DNA from: Terebella lapidaria
Lineage: Eukaryota; Annelida; Polychaeta; Terebellida; Terebellidae
Assembly (NCBI GenBank): GCA_949152475.1
Contig: OX424566.1
Span: forward strand, 10,377,177-10,441,176
Direction of reading: 5' to 3'
DNA: 64,000 nt
Made by a program: the position numbers and the translations under genes. This document shows, in pieces, positions 1,131-30,770 of the stretch (positions are counted from its first letter, which is position 1; each line of letters starts with the position of its first letter). The notes below the pieces were generated by a model. That model was not told the origin of the DNA, did no database searches, and saw nothing but the letters and a program-made list of their open reading frames with translations.

Positions 1131-2882
1131 TTAGCTTAAATTGATAATACAACTTTTGTCTTTAGACCGCATTATCAATTTAAAATTAGTTTCCCAATTT
1201 AATTTTTCTTTAATATACATACTTATGTACTTATTTCTTAACTCAATATATTGTGGACATACCAACAGAAAGTGAATTTCATCTTCTATATGATTTACAC
1301 CGTTTCTAGTTTTACAGTAAGTACATAGACGTTCGTTTCTATCGAGGCCAACATACCTTTGCTTTTCAATAGCTAAATGATGATTTAGACATCTAAATCG
1401 GGTCAATGCTACATGATATTTCCAATGCAGATCTTCAAACAGATACATTTCAAATTCCGAGGAAGATTTAAACACACTGTACATATACAATTTTGGGGTA
1501 TTCGACAGATCTGAATGCCATTCCTGCAAGCTGCTATCTATTAATCGTTGCCTAAAATTGTACATAAAAAGCTCAACGTTTCCGACTCCTTGGTGCATCC
1601 ACACATCACCAAAACCATAACTGTACAACATACATCTGATATCAGTTGCCCAATTACTACAACCTAATTCGTCATAGAGTTTCAAGTTTTTATATAATAT
1701 GTTTCGAAGTTTATGATTCGTGTCACTAACAATGCGTAGCCAGTATTTTACACTTTTTAATTTGTATATAACCAATAGAGGCATGCGACCTAATTCTCCC
1801 AAAACCATTGCATTGCAAGTGTTATAAGAAACTGACAATACAAATTTACAAAATTTTCTTTGAACCATTTCCACTGAATCTCTGTTTTTAGTACCCCATA
1901 TTTCTGCCCCATACATCAAAACTGGAACTATCATTTTATCAAACAAATCCAAAGACAGCTTAGCTGATATTCCGTACTTTTTGATAAATTGTTTCAACAT
2001 AAACACTGCTCTCTCTGCTTGTGAAGCTAACGTTTTGATTGCAGTTGACCACACTAATCTAGAAGAAAATATTACACCCAAATATTTGTAATAGCTAACA
2101 ATCTCAATCTTCTGCCCGTCAAAATAGAAACATTCGTTGCGTCGTAAGTAACCTCCATTTCTGAACACCACAACCTTGGTTTTGGATAGATTTACCTTTA
2201 AACCGTGCTCATCACAAAAATCTCTTAAAGTATTTAGTTGAATTTGTAATCTGCCGACCGTGTCATTCATCAAACAAATGTCATCTGCATACAGGAGCAT
2301 ATATAGATCTTCGAAATTTTGATCAACTTGTACACTGGGACATCCGAGCCTTTTACACTTTAAAACTAATTCATTGATGTACAGAGCGAACAAAAACGGG
2401 CTAACCATACATCCTTGTCGTGTACCTACAGAGCATGAGAAGAAATTTGTTGTGCCATCGAAGGTTTTTACACACGATCTCATATTTTTATACATTGACC
2501 TGAAAATATTTATAATTTTACCGTGAATTCCACACGTCAGTAACCTATACCATAATACAGAATGAGGAACAGAGTCGAAAGCCCTTGAAAAGTCAACAAA
2601 TGCTACATAAAAGCGACCCCTGTTTTTACGTAAATATTTATGTATTATAGCATACAACGAGAATATGTGATCTGCAGTAGAACGTCCTTTTCTGTAGGCA
2701 CCCTGAGCATCATCTAATTTGTTGTTACTTTCACACCAGTACACGAGTCTATTGTTTAGTACTTTTGTAAAAATTTTACCAACACAACAAAGTAGTGAAA
2801 TACCACGGTAGTTTTTAACATCATCCTTCGGACCTTTCTTGTGTATCGGGCTTATGATGGCATCTGCCCATTTACTGGGAAA
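1131..2882 (-). pseudogene. LINE reverse transcriptase and C-terminal domain (downstream part of broken ORF2)
   Basis: The frame is open from about 2882 down to the stop at 1131; the first ATG is at 2744, but homology continues upstream of it, so that ATG is not a true start. Counting from that Met, reverse transcriptase motifs appear in order: DAQGAYRKGRST (about 12-23), motif A AFVDFSRAFDSV with Asp 51, motif B GTRQGCMVSPFLF (about 107-119), motif C YADD (152-155), motif D GLKVNLSKTK (181-190) and a YKYLGV motif. The C-terminal block has CTYC followed by His and LLVC, a Cys-His array seen at the end of many LINE ORF2 proteins. It would copy element RNA at the nicked target. The catalytic residues are intact, but the frame is cut off from its endonuclease by a one-base shift near 2878-2883. 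Confidence 0.88.
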
Positions 2883-4129
2883 TATTCCAGTACCAATATT
2901 ACATTAAATAACGTACAAAGATAAGGTACAATAACATCTTTGGCACATATAAAAAACTCATACGGAATACCATCGACTCCGGGTTTTTTACCATTCGATA
3001 AACAATTTATAACATTCATGATTTCGCCAGTTTCAATCGGCGCATTTAAATAATCTGGTTCTTCATTCACACATTTATCACATTCTAGATCATGTTCACA
3101 CAAATATTCATGTACAATACTATTGAAATTTTCATCTATGACAGGTTGATCATTAAGCAAATCCTGAAAATATGATTCCCACCTCGATTTTGAGATCGAT
3201 TTATCAACACATGCTTTTATAGTTAAACTCTTCATATAAGACCAAACATCTTTGTTACACTGCACAGCTTCTCGTAAATTACCATACAGCTCTTTCTCAT
3301 ACACATGTCTTTTCTTACGACATAGTGTTTTAAAAGACTTTTTTGCACTTAAATATTCATCCAGAGAAGGTTGTGATCTGTTTACTCTGTAATTTTTTAA
3401 CATGATTTGCTTTTTACATTTTGCACTTTCACATTCTGTATCCCACCACATTGAATGTTTACTCCTTTTGTTTTTATTTACATGTACCCCGACATCTGAC
3501 CTATATTTCATTGACTCAGCGGCCCGCTGTACCATGTCAAGCAAACACGCCAGTGCTGCATTCACATCTCTATTACCAATATGTGTGATAAATGTGTCGC
3601 GGTACATGCTAGTACAGCTCAGCTCTGTATTTAGAAGGCTGAGGTATTCGTCACGCTTGTCTGGGTTCCAGCCAAACTGGGCCGGCATTGCTTGGCCTTG
3701 ACCTCCAGGTACATGACGAGGTGTGGGCGGACATGGTTCATCACACACACCGGTAAACAAACAAGTCACCGGGAAATGATCAGACTCATCCCGGCTAGAA
3801 ACAGAAAAATCGGATACACTAGGGAAAAGCTGCGACGACACCAGTATATAATCTACGACGCTTTGTCCCGAGGTAGAACAAAATGTGAATTCACCAAATT
3901 TGTCACTTTCATACCTTCCATTCAACATATGCACATTGCATTGTACACATAAATCAATTAGGCTCAAACCAAAAGCGTTTACCTCCGTATCTCTAGATTT
4001 CCTAGGCATAGAGAAAGTATCAGGCTCCCACCAATTTGGGTACGAATTATATTTGGTATTTGTTGTCATGGCGAGGCCATACTTGTTAGAAGGTTTTTTT
4101 CTTACATCACCAGGAAGAGAACAAATTAT
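2852..4129 (-). pseudogene. LINE endonuclease C-terminal part, linker and RT fingers (upstream part of broken ORF2)
   Basis: The frame is open from 4129; the first ATG is at 4069 but lies inside the endonuclease, so it is not a real start. The segment SVVDYILVSS and, further on, DESDHFPV match the last motifs of the exonuclease-endonuclease-phosphatase fold, whose Asp and His residues are catalytic. The Glu and first Asp motifs are missing through 5' truncation. A lysine/cysteine-rich linker follows, then NGKKPGVDGIPYEFF, the start of the reverse transcriptase fingers. The protein leaves frame just after LEYFP, at a T/C run near 2878-2883, where the next frame continues the same family sequence. 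This points to loss of a single base. The copy cannot make a functional ORF2 protein. Confidence 0.85.
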
Positions 4130-5054: not shown

Positions 5055-5476
5055 CTTAATTCAATGTTAAACTGAGCAACTTCGGATGTGCGTTTCACCT
5101 TTCCCCAAAAAAAATTGGGACATGGCGGTTGATAGGATATGACAGTATAATCATAATCATTCAGAAAACTCTATGTCACTACAGAGCATGATAATACCAG
5201 TTTTCCATGAAATCACGCTGAACAGGACCTCTGCCAATTTAGCCCGTTTTTCTGATGGCAATTGCCAACCTAGCATGCATACAGTAAAACCTTTCTCTAT
5301 TCGAAAAATACCATCGGAATTTCTGCTTTTCCCAAAACCAGACTTCGATGTTGCTTCGATGTTGCTTCGCGTTGTCGCCCTAGGCAACCATAGATCTACA
5401 TCTGGCGACATGACGTCACTTAAAACAGAATCCTCAACATGTGAGGCTTGCCCAAGTCTATTCATGGTTTGTAGCC
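5055..5476 (-). repeat. Diverged, inverted dispersed relative of the 1349-bp satellite monomer
   Basis: Read on the minus strand, this stretch aligns almost end to end with the first roughly 425 bases of each monomer in the 39-64 kb array. Shared words include GAGGATTC(T/C)GTTTTAAG, CTATGGTTGCCTAGGG, GACAACGCGAAGC, GTCTGGTTTTGGGAAAAGC and GGAAAGGTGAAACGCAC. It carries many substitutions and several small indels. One is a local duplication of GAAGCAACATC that replaces a segment of the monomer. Similarity begins at GG-TA-AA-CC (near 5476) and ends near AACATTGA(A/T)TTAA (near 5055). The 102-codon minus-strand frame inside it is a by-product of the repeat; I see no known domain. Confidence 0.85.
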
Positions 5477-6360
5477 TATCGCCCAGAAGTTCGATGGGTC
5501 GAAATAAACCCGTACGTTTTTTGTTCTTACCTAGTTCCTGGCACTCCGTACGGTACGATGCGGTGATGACATTGTACTAGGAAAAATTCATACATGATGC
5601 ATTGTACTCGTTGGTTGGTTCAACATATATGGTACTACAAGTAACCTACAGTGGAGAGAATTATGTTTGTGGCCAGCGGAAATATGTTGGGATGGGAAAG
5701 TTTTCGTGATTAATAATCTTTCTTTAATAAACAAAAAAGAACATATCTATCGATGTATATCCGAGCACAGACATTCAATGGTTTTAATGATGCCCAATGT
5801 TTTGGATCAAATTGATAGTTTATGCGTCTATTTTGGTGTAAAAAAAAAACATTTGTCATCACATTTTATCACTTTTATATCTTAAACTATAAAAATTGGC
5901 AACCTTTCGTAATTGTTCTGTCAACATCAGAAATTTAGCTCAATATTTTTGTTGCGCTACTATATGCGTATGCATTTCGGTAAATCAACAAATATCGCAA
6001 AGCTCTCAGAGTATTTGCGTTTATTCACAAGATTAAAATGTAAAACCTCATGGAAACAATCAGAAATATTATTTTTGAAAGTGCTGTTATACTTTTGTTG
6101 AGATTACTGTATTTAACAAAGGATAGCAGCATGAGCAGGACCGGGCCCACTCACATCTACCCTCCGTGGATCTCATTTTAGGCAAACTTAGAAGACCAGC
6201 GCGAGGCGTTGGCCAATAACCAACCAACATGGCATAAATTTACTTAAATTAAAACGCTGAAAGATTGACTTGTTTCAGATTGATTCGGCTTAGTCTGTAT
6301 AGGGTTGATTATAGCAGCCAAAGCGACATAAATTGTTTATTTTTTCTTTTTATTTCGCCC
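5477..6360. other. Spacer, nothing recognised
   Basis: AT-rich non-coding sequence with short chance frames only, ending in a run of C at 6367-6383. No gene supported. Confidence 0.4.
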
Positions 6361-9263: not shown

Positions 9264-9268
9264 ATACT
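9264..9268. repeat. Target-site duplication ATACT (left)
   Basis: ATACT abuts the left LTR and is repeated at 14914-14918 beside the right LTR. A 5-bp duplication is normal for Ty3-type integrases and fixes the element borders. Confidence 0.85.
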
Positions 9269-9656
9269 AGAGAATAACCCGTAGGCATTTCATGTGCTTT
9301 TATTCCGTCGTCATGACACACATTGGCAGAATGATACAACTGAAACAATAGAGCAAAATGAACACACAAAAGCTGATGACACACACTATGAACACAGTAA
9401 AGGAGAAGAGGTAAAACCATTACCAGATAATCTGTATCATGTACATACCACACAGAATGTCCATAAAGTCTTGTAACATTTTTATATAACACATGTATCC
9501 ATTGTTATTTAACATGTCCCTTCCAGTCACACCAGCAGCCACGCTATGAAGTGACCACTCACTGTTATATCAGTCTGCAGTGCTTGGTCTACCTGTGAAA
9601 GCCACTGGATTACACGGTCCAGTGGAGGCCATGCCCTGTCATGCATATTTCTCTAT
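9269..9656 (-). repeat. 3' LTR of the Ty3-type element
   Basis: 388 bp, 99 percent identical to 14526-14913. In the sense (minus) direction it has TATATAAA (plus-strand 9481-9488), as expected for the U3 promoter, and AATAAA (plus-strand 9299-9304) near the end, as expected for R/U5 processing. The short frames inside it are not genes. Confidence 0.95.
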
Positions 9657-9749
9657 CTCCCCCCAAGTCCTGGAATATGCGCGTTTCACGTGAAATATGA
9701 TGGGACTGATGACTTTTATCCCGCTGTATATATGATGGCATGCAGTGCT

Positions 9750-12700
9750 CTACTGGGTGTAGTCTTTCATCCAGGCTGGTGGTCGTCTTTCGCGCAGTGA
9801 CCGCCTGAGTGGTTGGGCAGTACTCGGTTCAGGATCATCATTTGCTGATGGAGGGGTATCATGTGTATCAGAGGTCGGTGGTGCAGGTGTTGTTTGGGTA
9901 GCCAACATGGGTGGTGGTTCAACATGCTCTGTGGTGATCTGAGGTGACCTGTCATGGTTGTTCTGACTGTCGTTGCTCGGGGTCTTGGTGACCTCAGGGC
10001 CATCAGCGGGTGTCCTCAGGTCGTTGCTTTGGGTTCGAGTGGCTGGAAGTGTTCTCAGGTCTTCCAGTATTGATCGACGGGTGAGCCGTGTATTTGCTGG
10101 AATGTATTTCCGGAGGAATTTTCTGTTTCGAAGTGTTGTTCGTCCGGATCCATCCACTCGTACAAGATATTGATCGAACTGACGTACCTCGATAATTACT
10201 CCAGTTTTGTCCCATTTTGTCGGGTAGGGGCCTGCCTGGTTCTGGATGCGTACAGTGTCTCCAACTATCAGAGGTGGCAATCTTCGGGTATGTTCGGTCC
10301 AACGTTCAGCGTCACGCATATGACGATTACGCAGTGCTTCTTCACGAGCTGCCAAGGTTGAGCGCCAAGTGGGGTGGGGTGTATAACATCCTGGTCTTAT
10401 CGGGATGAAGTCTCTGATCGGGCGACCAAACACGCACTGTGATGGTGATAGTTTTGTGGTTGGGTCTGGGGCATTCCTATATTGGAGAATGGCGCGCTGG
10501 AAAGCATTGCTGTCTAAAGTGCCTTTCGGGCCCGTGTTGTTAGAGATTAGACGTTTTATGGTTTTCACGCCAATTTCTGCCCGACAATTGCTGTGGGGAA
10601 ATGCAACGGATGACAACCTATGATGTACTCCCCATTGCTGTAGGAAGGTTCGGGTTGTGGTTGATGTGAATTCAGGACCTCCATCCGATGACAACTCATC
10701 AGGGATACCGTATGTAGCGAAGACACATCGTAACCATATGACCAAACCAGTTGCCCCATCATTTGCTTGTTCTACTATTGGCCAGTTGGAGTATCGATCC
10801 ACTATCACCAGGTAAGTTTTGCCCTTATACTGGAAGTAGTCAGCGCACAGACACTGGAAAGGGTACAACGGCTCGACTCGAGGAGCTGGTGGGGCGCTGG
10901 GTTGAGATGGGGCCATCTTGTTGCAATGTTCACATTGTGATCGTATGTGAGCAATGTCGTTTGTAATGCCTGGCCAGAATATTGACGATTCTGCTCGCGC
11001 TGTCATCATTGAGACACCTTGGTGGGCAGAGTGGAGGGCTTGGATGCAATCGTCACGCAGTTGTTGAGGAATCACAATCCTATTCTTGTACATAAGTACC
11101 CCATTTATGGTGTACAAATGTTCCCGAAACTGGTGGTACCCTCGCAGGGCTGCAGGCCAGTCTTCGAACGATGCTGGTAGATTCCCTTGTTCCAGCATGT
11201 CTATCATCTGTGTGAGGTTGCTGTCACTGTTGGTTGCTACTTTAACACGATCCCATGTGACCGACCGGAGAACCTCTAGAGATGCTGATGCGGCTCCTTC
11301 CAGCTCATTGTCCATAGTGTTGCTTTTTGGAGCTTGGCTGCGAAGGATTGCCAGTGGCTCTGTGTCGTTGAGATACATGATGGCACCATTATCATCTTCT
11401 AGAGGATATTTCTCAGGTGTTGGGGGGCCCGATGGTGTGCGTGACATGCAGTCTGAGGCCTTGTTTTTCACGCCCGGAATGTGGATTAGTTGGAACCGGT
11501 AACGGAGTGTCTTCTCTTTCAAGTTTCTGAGTCGTGGGTTGCTGATGTCGTCGAGGGGTCGTTGTCCTAATATACCCAGGAGTGGTTTATGGTCCACAGC
11601 CACGATGAGATCTGTGCATCCAAGTACAAAATACCTGGCACGATCCAATGCATCCACTACGGCTAGAGCTTCGCCCTCGATTGGTGCATATCGAGACTCG
11701 GCAGAGTGGGTGAAGCGACTTCCAACTAGGGTTATCTTCCAGCCGTCACGACAACAGAAGAGGTTCTTTGTGTCAATCTTTGGGCATTTACAGTGTTTTT
11801 GTAGCAGCCAAAACCCGACTCCAGTTTTTGACCAATCTGTGATGAGGCACGTTGCTTTTGTTTTGTCGAAGATTTGCACGCCATGACAGATTTCATTGAT
11901 GATTTTCTGTTTGGATAGTTTGAAGAGCTCATCAAGTGTTTCATCCCAGTAGAATGTTTTCCTAGGTTTGAGGAGGTCGCGGAATGGTGCCATTGTTGCT
12001 GTCATGGAGAATGCATAGGAGACCTGGTTTACGAGACCAAACCACGATCGGATGTCTGTGACTGACTTTGGTGTTGGGAAGTCGTGGATCGCTCTCAGAT
12101 ACTTTTGGCTGGGCCGGACTTTGGTGTCGGTTATCTCAAATCCAGCGAACTCCACGGAATCACCTGCAAAGGTGAATTTGTCAGGGTTGAGTGTGATGCC
12201 GTTTTTGCCACACGTTTCTAGCCACATAGTTGTTTGGTGGAAGCTGGCTTCTATGGAATTGGACCAGAGTAGAGTATCATCCACACATTTCACTTTGTCG
12301 GTGAAGTGTGCAACTAGTTCGTCAAATCGTCTAGTGTATGCATCACCAGATGCTACGTATCCTTGAGGGCACACCCGATATCGATATCGTCCCCAGGGAG
12401 TTATGAAGGTTGTCAAATGGCGGTCTTCCTCATGGAGTGGGACGCTGTGGTATCCATTCCAGGCATCACATACTGTTTTCTTGGTGTTGTTTGGTACCGA
12501 TCTTGCCAGCTGGAATGGTGATGGCGTGTGATGTGTTTCCCTAGTAGCATTGGTATTGAGGGCTTGCATGTCCACTGTGCGTCGTGGCTTGCCATTCTTT
12601 TTAGAACAGATGACCATGCGGTGGCAATACGTCACTGGTGTGCCAACAGGGACAGGTTCTATGACGCCCAGATTGACATCTCTGTCAAGGCCTGCCTTGA

Positions 12701-14525
12701 CTTCATCGCGCCAGTGTATGGGTACCGGGATGGGAGTGTGGTGTGCGACTGGCTCTTTATCTTGGTTCACCATGAGTCGTAATGGAGGACAGTTCATCAT
12801 GGGTAGTGGAGTGTGTTCACACGTGTTGAATGTTGACGATGAGTAATAGTCCAGTAACCATTGTTGTAGCTTTTCCCGGTTCTCGGCAGTTGCCGGGAAT
12901 GGTGGGTGTTTTGGACGGGGTGGTGGCTTTTGGCGTGGTGGGCAGTCACAAGGGTGGTCGTTTGTGTTGACTGCCGATGAGAATTCTCCAAGCGTTGGGA
13001 ATTTCTCACTGATGATTCCAAGTGCTAGACAGGCTTCTCTGCTCAGGAAGAATCTGTTTGTAGAGTCGGTGATGTATACCATTTGCTTTGTTGTGCAATT
13101 TCTGTCCTTGTGACCAGACAGTCGAATCACTATGGCTCCAATGATGTTGATGCTGATGCTATTTGCTGCCCTCATTGACATGTTCACAGGCAGCAGGTCA
13201 CTTCTTGAGAGTCCGAGAGGTGTGAGGATGTGTGTTCCTCCAAGACAGCTCTGGCATCCTGTGTCCGCTATGCAGTCTATGGTTGTTGACCTGTCGTTTA
13301 TGTTGCGGGGGAAGCCAAGTGATTCATAGTCTTCTCTCCTGATGCTGGCTGACAGTGTGATAATTGGTTGTGGCATTGACGATCGCTTGAGCCAAGTGTC
13401 TGTGAGATTGCTGTGTATGTGATGGTCCAGTGAGACAGAGTAGTTTGTGGCTTTCTGGTCTTGTTCATGGACAGAGCAAAGTTCGTTGAACATCGCATTT
13501 TCAGATGCATCTCTTGTTTCACTTGATCTGTTGTTATCTGAGTGGCGACCGCCTCTACAGACCAATGAGAAGTGATTTTTTATGTTGCACTTCTCGCACG
13601 TGTGGCCGAAGGCAGGACATGCTGACCGACGAATTCTGGTTGGGGCCCTTTTGCCATGACCGGTTTGACCGCAGTATGTACAGCTTTCATCAAAGCTCAT
13701 TTGTTGTTTGTTTGTGGGCTTGTCGCCGGACTTCAGTTTTCCGTTTTTGAACTTTCGGTACGAGCTGCTGGCTGCGGCAGTCTGGGTGGTGTTTGAGAGT
13801 CGGGAAGCTGATCGTTTTCCAGATTCCTTTTTCTCAATGAATAAGAGGGTTTCTTCCAGGGATGGTGTTTGGTTGCTGCTCCCCAGCAGGTCCAACTGTA
13901 TGTCCTTGTCTGCTAAACCTTGACTCACGACGTCTCTGATCACTTCGTCGGTGTAGTCCACTGTGTGTGAACAATCGGGACAGTCAATTGTGTACTTGCA
14001 TACAGCGGCTTGTCCTCGTACCCTGGCACAATAGGCTCGTACTGGTTCATCATGGCCCTGTATCATCGAGTGGAGTTCGGCTCTGGCTACCATGGGGCTC
14101 TCTTCCCGAACAGCAAGTTTTTTCATGCTGTTTATCACGTCGTCACTGCTCTTGCTTGTGAGTGAGCCCACTGTATTGCGCGTGAGGTCCCGTCTGAGTT
14201 GCTCATCACAACACTCTAGGAGTTGAATTATCAACGTTTTGCCTGATATCCCTGTTGCTTCTACGTGGTCTCCCCATCGTGTCTCGAAATATTTCCAGTC
14301 AGCTGGAGTGACGCCAGTGCTGATGGTCGGCCTGTTGACTTTCTCGACTTTAGCTGCACTGTTGCTGCTTTGGGGGGCTGTGTGTGAGAGGCCGTGTATC
14401 TTGAGCAGTTCCACAGCTATCTGTGACTCGACATCGCCAGTGCTGTAGTCACAATCGGTGAATGGACAGTTGATTCCTGGCATGTTTGACGCTGTGGTGG
14501 CGGCGGGTAATGTGTGTTGTATCAT
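9750..14525 (-). CDS. Gag-Pol polyprotein of the Ty3-type retrotransposon
   Basis: A 1591-residue intact frame. Gag: a C2H2-like finger (CPFTDC...HGLSH, about 20-48), then CCHC-like knuckles (about 282-323). Aspartic protease: IADTGCQSC with DTG 421-423. Reverse transcriptase: [10 protein letters not shown] with Asp 687, the [11 protein letters not shown] segment, and CVDD 747-750 where YVDD is usual. RNase [11 protein letters not shown] with Asp 897, [10 protein letters not shown] with Glu 952, and VDHKPL with Asp 978. Integrase: HHCC finger (His 1165, His 1168, Cys 1198, Cys 1201) and a DDE core with Asp 1229, Asp 1281 and Glu 1317. The C-terminus is Pro/Thr-rich and ends [12 protein letters not shown]. 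Gag and pol share one frame, so no frameshift signal is needed. The first ATG lies directly at the LTR border; the next is residue 15. No key catalytic residue is missing. Confidence 0.96.
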
Positions 14526-14913
14526 AGAGAATAACTCGTAGGCATTTCATGTGCTTTTATTCCGTCGTCATGACACACATTGGCAGAATGATACAACTGA
14601 AACAATAGAGCAAAATGAACACACAAAAGCTGATGGCACACACTATGAACACAGTAAAGGAGAAGAGGTAAAACCATTACCAGATAATCTGTATCATGTA
14701 CATACCACACAGAATGTCCATAAAGTCTTGTAACATTTTTACATAACACATGTATCCATTGTTATTTAACATGTCCCTTCCAGTCACACCAGCAGCCACG
14801 CTATGAAGTGACCACTCACTGTTATATCAGTCTGCAGTGCTTGGTCTACCTGTGAAAGCCACTGGATTACACGGTCCAGTGGAGGCCATGCCCTGTCATG
14901 CATATTTCTCTAT
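14526..14913 (-). repeat. 5' LTR of the Ty3-type element
   Basis: 388 bp; partner of the LTR at 9269-9656. One of the three differences (C at 14742) changes the U3 TATA motif from TATATAAA to TATGTAAA in the sense direction, so the promoter of this copy may be weaker than that of its 3' LTR. The polyadenylation hexamer is kept. Confidence 0.95.
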
Positions 14914-21666: not shown

Positions 21667-21671
21667 CATAT

Positions 21672-21752
21672 CACAGTGCCGAAACCGACTATGGTAACGC
21701 GCATTACCATAATCAAAAATGGCGACAGGCACTTGTGGTTCGAGTTTGCTCG
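21672..21752 (+). repeat. Left terminal inverted repeat of the CACAGTG element
   Basis: Begins CACAGTGCCGAAACCGACTA and contains a smaller palindrome, ATGGTAACGCGCATTACCAT. The outer 47 bases match the right end exactly in reverse complement. Confidence 0.92.
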
Positions 21753-21895
21753 TGAATTTATATGCATATAACGTGTATAAGTCGAGGGGATCTTCAAAAT
21801 ATGCCGAAATCGATACATGTAGGTTAATCCCGATTATGTGCAATGGGTCACTTGGTGACATATTAGTGGAAACAGAGGGTGGACAATTGTGTCCT

Positions 21896-21966
21896 GACTA
21901 GGGTAACGCGAATGTCAGATTATGGTAATGTGATTTGTAGGAAAGTTAATGACTGTGGTAATGCGA
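21896..21966 (+). repeat. Left subterminal motif cluster (three GACTRTGGTAAYGCGA-like copies)
   Basis: GACTAGGGTAACGCGA (21896), GATTATGGTAATGTGA (21918) and GACTGTGGTAATGCGA (21951) repeat the core that also lies in the terminal repeat. Repeated subterminal words of this kind are usually transposase-binding sites; here that is an inference. Confidence 0.7.
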
Positions 21967-22890
21967 TGTGTCTTTCGTACACAAAAACAATTATATTGTC
22001 AACATAACAATGAGTTGAGGGATGGAGTATGTGTTGAAAACTCTCGAATCATCTGTTATGTTATCGCATATCCATGTCAAAAAAACATCTGCGATGTTAT
22101 TACTGTACAAAAATCAGCAACTACATCAAAGTTATTATATCAGAACTATGATACACATGATGAGAAACGTAAAGTTGTCGATTAAAAGCAGGGTCTGGCA
22201 TGAGGCTACATTTGATTTTTTATTACAAATCTGTGCACTTTCCAATCAAATTGTCAGAAATATTAAAGAATTTCAAAAACGGGAGATGATGACTGTTCGA
22301 TTTAAGCTGCTGTTAGACTATGCGAATCAGTCGCAGCGACTCGGTGGCACGCCAGTCGCATGCGATTTGGTCGCCGCGATCATCACTGGTCATGACTGTG
22401 CGGTCGAGTCGCATGAACATGTAAATTGACGATTTTGAGAGCGATTCGGACATGTGTTTTTGGCGTGAAAACATGGATCACAATTAATGTAGGCTAAATC
22501 ATACAATACAAGTTACAGAAAGAATGTGTGGGTCATTGCTGTGGCACCGTTCATCTTGTGTTCAATCTGGGCATTTAATCTTATCAAGAACAAACCGTGT
22601 GAAAAAGGGAAATAAATGTGTTGTGATGGACTTTTTTTGTCTGGGTAAATACCAAGAGTGGTATGTCGGCACTCACTTTGAGACTTTACATCCTAATTAT
22701 ACTGCAAATATCCTACTATGTTACTCCATGATCTACTTTTTACACACTACATGTGAATGTCATTTTATCCGTCTCGCACATATTTTGTTATCTCTGATCA
22801 ATATACTGAGCAGTACGAGAAGTATGTGATGTGCGAGGGGCAAGAAGTATCCCATTTTATTAAACTATTTCAATATTTACTAGTACAATT

Positions 22891-23349
22891 TGTTACGTAG
22901 TAACTTCGTCTGGATCTGAGTCACACATTCATTCCGTATGTTCACACAAAGACAAACTCCGTTGTAAGTTTTAGAGTGTTTATTAACTACGGACCCAAAT
23001 TTACAAAGTTACAAAGTGGAATTTACAGTACAGAGAAACAATTTGGAATATACAAATAAGAATACCTTACCCGCGCTAATAGCCGAAATACCCTCCCGGT
23101 TAATTTGGAAAACCGAGAACAAAGTTAAATATCCAAAAGCACGTGCGTCGAAGTTCTAGACAATTCGAGAGCGTGTGTCGTCGGTGGCTGCCTGTATGCT
23201 TCTGCTCTAGCCTGGGGAGAGTGCCGCTCAGTCCACGGGCCTCCAGCGTTCCGCTTCAGTGAACCTGCAAAAGAAAAACACATGCATTCCCTATCCCCGT
23301 GCCGAGGGCGGTTGGGAAACAGTATTACAGAATCAATCGGCACCTAACA
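22891..23349 (-). mobile_element. Candidate solo LTR nested in the CACAGTG element
   Basis: Read on the minus strand, the 459-bp interval begins TGTTAGG and ends GTAACA, so the ends are TG...CA with inverted TGTTA. AATAAA (plus-strand 22979-22984) lies about 90 bases before the 3' end, and a TATTTAA-like box lies upstream, as in an LTR. Base composition differs from the flanks (GC-rich 5' half). No clean target duplication: flanks are CAATT and ATGTA. ACAAT occurs just outside both ends but out of register. It may instead be a fragment of another element. Confidence 0.4.
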
Positions 23350-23815
23350 ATGTATATTGTTTTCTCCCTATTGTCCGAGGCTCCCCAATTGTCCTGAATT
23401 GTTTCTGTATTCGGGGCTGCAGTGACGTCGGAAAGTGACAGTGTTTTCATATTTACATGTATTGGAACATTGTCCACAAACTGTGTTCACTGTGTTCATC
23501 TCGATCTTGTTGTCATCAAATTACCAAGTGTCCGTATGTACCCGGAACCATAGGTTTGTTCTCATCGTTGCGATTGGCTATAATTACATGCGACCCAGTG
23601 GTTCTATATTTCACGGTGTCAGCATGGGTTTCCGCAGAAACCCTCTCTTATGGGTTTCTGGTTTCAGCACGGTACTACATCCAGTATGTGCAGTTTTAAA
23701 GAAAAAATTGCACTGTAACATGAAAAAAAAAATACCCTGTAGTATATATGCGAATATCGTATAAATTACTGTTCAATTCTTGTGTTATATATATTATTCG
23801 CAGTGAAGTGGTGAA

Positions 23816-23877
23816 TGCATTACCACAGTCGATACTGTGCGTTACCGTTGTCAATGTAGCCATGGATACCATAGTCA
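23816..23877 (-). repeat. Right subterminal motif cluster, inverted partner of the left one
   Basis: Three diverged copies of the same motif in the opposite orientation (around 23816-23830, 23838-23852 and 23865-23877), mirroring the left cluster. They are more degenerate than those on the left. Confidence 0.6.
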
Positions 23878-24018
23878 GCCACGATTTTCAATCTCTGATA
23901 TCTCGTAGAAGAAGACTATTTTTTATAACTCTTCTGATTAATTATGTGTAGCACAATCAACTTCATATCATAGAATTCTGAATGCTTCAAAATAGCCTAT
24001 CATTTAAGTTGTTAGGCT

Positions 24019-24099
24019 CGATCAAATTCGAACCACAAATACCGGTCGCCAATTTTGATTATGGTAATGCGCGTTACCATAGTCGGTTTCGGCACTGTG
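24019..24099 (-). repeat. Right terminal inverted repeat of the CACAGTG element
   Basis: Reverse complement of 21672-21752 with six mismatches, all in the inner part. Ends GGCACTGTG on the plus strand, then the target duplication CATAT. Confidence 0.92.
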
Positions 24100-24104
24100 C
24101 ATAT

Positions 24105-29614: not shown

Positions 29615-29829
29615 TTCTGCAGTAGCGGATTTAGAGGGGGGGGGGGGGTTACTGGGGTCAGGACCCCCCCTTTTCGAAAAAAGATACATGTAAATATTAG
29701 GCGGGTTCAGACTTCCTGCCCGAAAAATAATGATGTCAAAATACCATGTACAAGAACAAGTTGATCATGGTGAGTTTGTTCGAAATGTATACTCAAGAGA
29801 GACCGGGAAGCTACCACGGGACATAAAAA

Positions 29830-30770
29830 AGGGTCTGGCTTCTGGGGTCCTTCAGCGGGCCCCGGACCCCCACCGAAATGTGCAGATTCCCTCCTACATT
29901 TTTTTTTTACAAACTTTTCAGGATATAGTCATCAATGAAATTTTGAGTGCAACCAGGAGAGTCACTAAATTAATTCAGAACATAAACAAGCTATGATTTC
30001 TGGGGCATTTCAGTGGGGTCCAGACCCCCGGCCCGAATGTCCAGCTTCTCTTCCACCTTTTCACAAACTTTCCAGAACATGGTCATCAATGACTTCTTAA
30101 GTGCAACCAATCCCAGGAAAGGCCACAAAATTAGTTCAGAACATAAGGAAGGCTATGACTTCTGGGGCCTTTGGGCGGGCCACAGGACCCCCGGCCCAAA
30201 TGTGTAGCTTCTCTTCGACATGTACATTTTTCACAAACTTTCCAGAACATGGTCATCGATGAATTTTTAAGTGCAATTTATTCCGAGGAGAAGGCCACAA
30301 AATAAGTTCAGAACATTAAAATGGCTATGACTTCTGGGGCCTGCTTAAGGGCCCCAGACCTCCGGCTAAAATAAGTAGCTTCCCTTCTACTTTCTACCAA
30401 AGTTTCCTGAACATGGTCATCGATGAATTTTTAAGTGCTATTTATTCCCAGGAGGAGGCCACAAAATTAGTTCAGAACATAAAAAGGGTTATGACTTCTG
30501 GGGCCCTTAAGCGGGCCCCAGACCCCCGGCCAAAATGGGTAGCTTCCCTTCTACTTTCTACCAAAGTTTCCAGAACATGGTCATCGATGAATTTCTAAAT
30601 GCAATTTATTCCCAGGAGAAGGCCACAAAATAAGTTCAGAACATAAAAAGGGCTATGACTTCTGGGGCCTTTAAGCGGGCCCCAGACCCCCGGCCAAAAT
30701 GGGTAGCTTCTCTTCTACTTTCTACCAAAGTTTCCAGAACATGGTCATCGATGAATTTTTGACATTAGAG
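29830..30770. repeat. Tandem repeat, six copies of about 160-170 bp, GC-rich hairpin cores
   Basis: The word CTTCTGGGGCC...GCGGGCCCCAGACCCCCGGCC recurs (in parts) near 29838, 29996, 30158, 30330, 30493 and 30658. Each is followed by CAGAACATGGTCATCGATGA and by CCAGGAGAAGGCCACAAAAT. The cores can fold as GGGGCC...GGCCCC hairpins. The last two copies are the most alike, so the array grew from its right side most recently. Confidence 0.85.

Follow-up and report, generated by a model that had tools for sequence, protein, structure and literature searches.

Heptamer-like tips and 5-bp target-site duplications have been described for Transib transposons (PMC7204232, PMC8289069), and target duplications with a GC bias have been reported for ProtoRAG, Transib and RAG (PMC8289069). 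The ends of protostome RAG-like (RAGL) transposons follow the tip consensus CACTWMCAAACKTYKBB, with AAA conserved at positions 8-10 (PMC7204232), and a YY1 site has been reported in the ends of ProtoRAG (PMC7481187). The CACTA/Mirage/Chapaev/Transib clade is characterized by mostly CA..TG ends and duplications of 2-5 bp, and hAT5 and hAT6 are defined by duplications of 5 bp and 6 bp, respectively, with one length per group (PMC12730594).

The stretch of Terebella lapidaria DNA analysed here, hereafter the window, comprises 64,000 nucleotides and harbours at 21672-24099 a DNA transposon, the features of which are as follows:

21667-21671, no strand: left target-site duplication CATAT, read from the sequence
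21672-21752, plus strand: left terminal inverted repeat of 81 bp with the tip CACAGTG
21687-21714, no strand: a facing pair of the motif GACTATGGTAACGCG (15 bp) within the left end (consensus positions 16 and 29)
21896-21965, plus strand: three left subterminal motif copies at 21896, 21918 and 21951 (consensus positions 225, 247 and 280)
22888-23349, minus strand: later insert of 462 bp, solo-LTR-like (TGTTA..TAACA), absent from other aligned copies
23816-23876, minus strand: right subterminal motif copies (23816-23830, 23838-23852 and a damaged third copy that ends at 23876), assigned by eye against the consensus sites 224, 257 and 279 from the right tip
24019-24099, minus strand: right terminal inverted repeat of 81 bp, including a facing pair of motif copies at 24057-24084
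24100-24104, no strand: right target-site duplication CATAT, read from the sequence

An earlier note on this DNA had described 81-bp inverted ends with identical outer 47 bp, CACAGTG tips and CATAT flanks, and this anatomy was reproduced in full: the two arms are 93% complementary, both begin with CACAGTG, and CATAT stands on either side of the element. The 47-bp match between the arms is the longest exact inverted repeat, with partners up to 6 kb apart, in the first 39 kb of the window, the longest one in 20 shuffles of the same 39 kb being 16 bp. Within the window, a tip pattern of 26 nt, with as many as 3 mismatches allowed, matched the two ends of the element only. In the 64 kb, CACAGTG itself was counted eight times over both strands, including the two tips, so that the heptamer alone is not rare and it is its place at both borders that counts. 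For this copy, the alternative of a 4-bp ATAT duplication plus a one-base indel was rejected, since the other copies indicate 5 or 6 bp outside CACAGTG. An exon with splice-site-like and poly(A)-like signals, seen by eye, was likewise dropped, as it lies inside the 462-bp segment absent from other copies; an AATAAA can be read by eye on the minus strand of this insert.

The element belongs to a young, non-autonomous family of an already known kind of transposon. Its 30-nt tip, searched with up to 2 mismatches, gave 338 matches in the 761.6-Mb source assembly (173 forward and 165 reverse) versus none for the reversed tip pattern used as a control, and 80 exact occurrences of the 51-nt left-type tip were counted. 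A search of the same assembly with the 94-nt left end yielded 385 candidates, 40 of which, the window included, were scored and proved to be 97-100% identical. Besides the copy in the window, 39 copies were retrieved (L009 and L048 being one copy); in L031 and L045 the second end is incomplete in the stretch retrieved. Alignment of 28 copies of 1.88-2.04 kb separated a young group of 22, which diverge from the consensus by 1.7-4.0%, from six with a divergence near 10%. At C15:8068008-8068208, two exact 51-nt family tips stand back to back, 150 bp apart. A supposed second family, sharing 16 nt of the tip and then diverging, was discarded: it was seen in a single place, which turned out to be a variant copy. 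The exact 23-nt tip had no match in viral or in bacterial and archaeal contigs, nor had the inner palindrome in viral contigs, collections which hold few animal sequences, and the string CACAGTGCCGAAA was not found in the literature searched.

Duplications were counted in the 38 copies with both ends, that of the window included and L049-L051 left out. The duplication is 5 bp long in 27 of the 38 copies and 6 bp long in eight, the latter being genuine 6-bp repeats in which the 5-bp frame fails, and three copies (L022, L035 and L037) have no perfect one; the 5-bp length foreseen by the earlier note holds for most copies, but not for the family as a whole, and the occurrence of another length in part matches one of the refuting outcomes which the note had named. 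CACAGTG is found at the left end of 38/38 and at the right end of 36/38 copies, counts which are favoured by the choice of copies for their similarity to the left end of the window element. A duplication of 5 or 6 bp lies directly outside CACAGTG in 35 of the 38 copies; in a control in which flanks of different copies were mispaired, 38 of 1406 pairs matched over at least 5 bp. Since CACAGTG and the adjoining duplications recur in other copies, the border is confirmed. The tips are indeed exact heptamers of the recombination signal sequence (RSS), as the earlier note had read them, and the absence of a second copy with CACAGTG at the same border, which it had named as a possible refutation, is excluded.

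The 27 five-bp duplications agree with A-T-W-A-T in 18, 15, 23, 19 and 24 copies, position by position, and they are preceded by C in 15/27 and followed by G in 18/27 cases, the target being an AT-rich palindrome, C-ATWAT-G. Their GC content is 13%, compared to 45% in the flanks.

The consensus contains ten sites of the 15-bp motif GACTATGGTAACGCG (up to 2 mismatches), five per end and in mirror image, at 16, 29, 225, 247 and 280 from the left tip and at 16, 29, 224, 257 and 279 from the right tip. Outside the element, three occurrences with up to 4 mismatches were detected in the 61.6 kb of the window. The family tip reads CACAGTGCCGAAACCG. It shares with the RSS the heptamer CACAGTG, but no nonamer follows at 12 bp (4/9 bases match) or at 23 bp (1/9), the best likeness at other spacings amounting to 6/9 bases. 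The YY1-like sequence CGCCATTTTTG is present on the reverse strand of both consensus ends and may correspond to the YY1 site of ProtoRAG (PMC7481187), a match short enough to be possibly due to chance.

The earlier note also regarded the element as a non-autonomous DNA transposon with many copies, in agreement with the number of tips given above and with the frames scanned, in which no transposase was detected. In the window copy, no Pfam match above the cut-off was obtained in 30 of the 34 stop-free fragments of at least 40 aa. Copies of 2.6-6.6 kb were considered as autonomous candidates and rejected, the inserts within them being, for example, simple repeats and duplicated segments; the longer copies with inserts are L021, L025, L026, L035 and L047-L051. 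Thirty frames from eight longer copies gave no domain above the cut-off: ten of these frames came from L050 and L051, and 20 were taken from the 44 listed (at least 80 aa, low-complexity ones removed) for L021, L025, L026, L035, L047, L048 and L049, with no L026 frame among them. No autonomous copy was found among the copies and frames scanned; only part of the 338 tips were listed individually, and an autonomous copy may sit at the others.

It had been further suggested in the earlier note that a Transib or RAG1/2-like transposase is or was present in this genome and mobilises the element. The presence of a RAG1/2-like enzyme was borne out. The RAG1 family search led to 18 matches above the cut-off in this genome and to none in 14 control genomes, and a RAG1L/RAG2L transposon could be read whole on C7 (L053 and L052; C7:27373894-27383469, 9,576 bp), with AAAAG duplications on both sides. 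This copy contains an open RAG1L frame of 1046 aa (RAG1, E 1.9e-88) and a convergent RAG2L-like frame of 494 aa with Kelch repeats (3.5e-32) and weak resemblance to the PHD finger (9.4e-4) and RAG2 (0.0084), each below its own cut-off. The left end, AAAAG and then CACATAGAAACGT at C7:27373894, was located via the sequence predicted from the RAGL-like tip on the right-hand side of the two genes; the right end, at 27383469, is followed by AAAAG. The 25-nt left tip has six exact occurrences (C1, C2, C3, C7, C9 and C14), all six approximately 4.1-4.4 kb from a RAG1-like match, and one more with 3 mismatches; at the C2 locus, the RAG1 matches contain stop codons. At least five copies of RAG1L share 99-100% identity over a stretch of 117 aa, and the transposon is apparently recent. 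The closest named relatives of the RAG1L core are molluscan, namely Mercenaria (51%) and Pinctada (49%). The six loci, with their common tip and near-identical RAG1L, provide a natural comparison for RAGL ends and for continued mobility. A distant RAG1-like match at C9:27591018-27591173 (44% over 52 aa) possibly represents Transib or another RAG1 relative.

The family resembles RAGL and ProtoRAG elements in the CAC start, the G at position 7, the 5-bp duplications of most copies and the YY1-like site inside the ends, yet it lacks RAG1L and RAG2L genes in the frames scanned. Its tip matches both the left and the right RAGL tip of the same genome at 5/7 heptamer positions, and at 4/18 and 3/18 of the positions that follow, respectively. 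Nor does it fit the protostome RAGL consensus, its AAA being found, by eye, at positions 11-13 instead of 8-10 (PMC7204232). Neither convergent RAG1L/RAG2L genes between the ends nor ends in common with the RAGL transposon of the genome were observed for the tips listed, and none of the 12 RAG1-like loci lies within 1.7 Mb of a listed family tip (118 and 80 listed tips, overlapping, of the 338). The suggestion that the RAG1/2-like transposase mobilises the element found no support in this comparison of tips and loci. The RAGL transposase is present, but its transposon has other ends, and kinship of the family with this RAG-like element is not supported by the sequences compared.

Very probably, the window element is one member of a young family of non-autonomous cut-and-paste transposons, some 2 kb in length, that are moved in trans, most likely not by the RAG1L/RAG2L transposase of this genome. 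We infer that a trans-acting transposase would recognise the palindromic motif within each inverted end as well as its three mirrored subterminal copies, these being the putative binding sites, and that the bound enzyme would bring the two ends together, cleave at the CAC..GTG tips and insert the element into AT-rich C-ATWAT-G targets with a stagger of 5 bp, sometimes 6 bp, the steps probably following in this order. An exact CACAGTG tip and one 5-bp duplication are insufficient to call an element RAG-like, since 37 more copies revealed duplications of 5 or 6 bp and an AT-rich target, and the true RAGL transposon has other ends.

As for the enzyme, a Transib transposase encoded by autonomous copies outside those seen is a tentative possibility. 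The CAC-starting, heptamer-like tips, here with the exact RSS heptamer at both, the inverted ends and the 5-bp duplications in 27/38 copies are all reminiscent of Transib, and the distant RAG1-like match at C9:27591018 might point in the same direction; the family differs, however, in its 6-bp duplications (8/38), its AT-rich palindromic target and its ten internal sites of the 15-bp motif, arranged in mirrored arrays. Duplications with 13% GC, compared to 45% in the flanks, are also at odds with the GC bias reported for Transib (PMC8289069), though this bias is a tendency only, and the AAAAG duplication of the genome's own RAGL copy weakens any argument from target bias against RAG or Transib. 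Searches of the genome with the RAG1 family and with 117 aa of RAG1L, which may miss Transib, revealed no Transib gene, and none of the RAG1-like matches is close to a listed tip. A profile, A1, does reach the Transib transposase of solved structure, 6pqn, at E 8.1e-11.

The family might also be moved by a different member of the CACTA/Mirage/Chapaev/Transib clade or by a relative yet to be described, though this is doubtful. Multiple subterminal sites suit CACTA-type enzymes, and the CA..TG ends and 5-bp duplications would be in keeping with the clade, but duplications of 6 bp exceed its range of 2-5 bp.

It seems rather unlikely that the family is moved by a hAT transposase of the hAT5/hAT6 kind. 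Both lengths that define these groups, 5 and 6 bp, occur in the family, whereas a single length is expected per group (PMC12730594). The genome is rich in hAT dimerisation domains (149 matches among 150 scored of 273 candidates), yet only three of the 149, on C3, C11 and C17, lie within 15 kb of a listed family tip. Elements of the hAT type commonly carry subterminal repeats; their tips, however, usually have A or G as the third base, where the family has C. No hAT domain was seen inside a tip-bounded element among the tips listed and no hAT gene is linked to them: the domains on C11 and C17 do not lie on the element side of the tip, and the hAT gene situated 8.1 kb away from the C3 tip was dropped, as no right tip follows within 1 kb after it.

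Quite unlikely, too, is an undescribed lineage akin to Transib and RAG, which would combine the exact RSS heptamer with motif arrays in place of the nonamer, staggers of 5 or 6 bp and a CATWATG target; if it were true, one genome would contain two separate systems of CACA-starting ends. That the genome's own RAG1L/RAG2L transposase moves the family is very improbable: the transposon is present, with its near-identical RAG1L copies, and CACA and G7 are common to both tips, but the two tips diverge past the heptamer, RAG1-like matches accompany the RAGL tips and not the listed family tips, and the 6-bp duplications in 8/38 copies, AT-rich targets, mirrored arrays and missing nonamer at 12 or 23 bp speak against RAG and Transib alike.

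The preferred reading, a young non-autonomous family moved in trans, has to accommodate the 3/38 copies without a perfect duplication, as well as L049-L051, in the printed flanks of which a perfect 5-bp repeat is seen in L050 only.

The remainder of the window contains several other repeats. An LTR retrotransposon at 9268-14913 is Gypsy-like, with a 1598-aa frame and 389-bp LTRs that are 99.2% identical, and its best named relative is from Mytilus (53%). Two long frames at 1131-4129 resemble, by eye, a LINE-type reverse transcriptase and an endonuclease part. A tandem array with a 164-bp unit occupies 29821-30760, and another, with a unit of ∼1,349 bp, extends over 39359-64000 and has a 79% relative, inverted, at 5056-5477.
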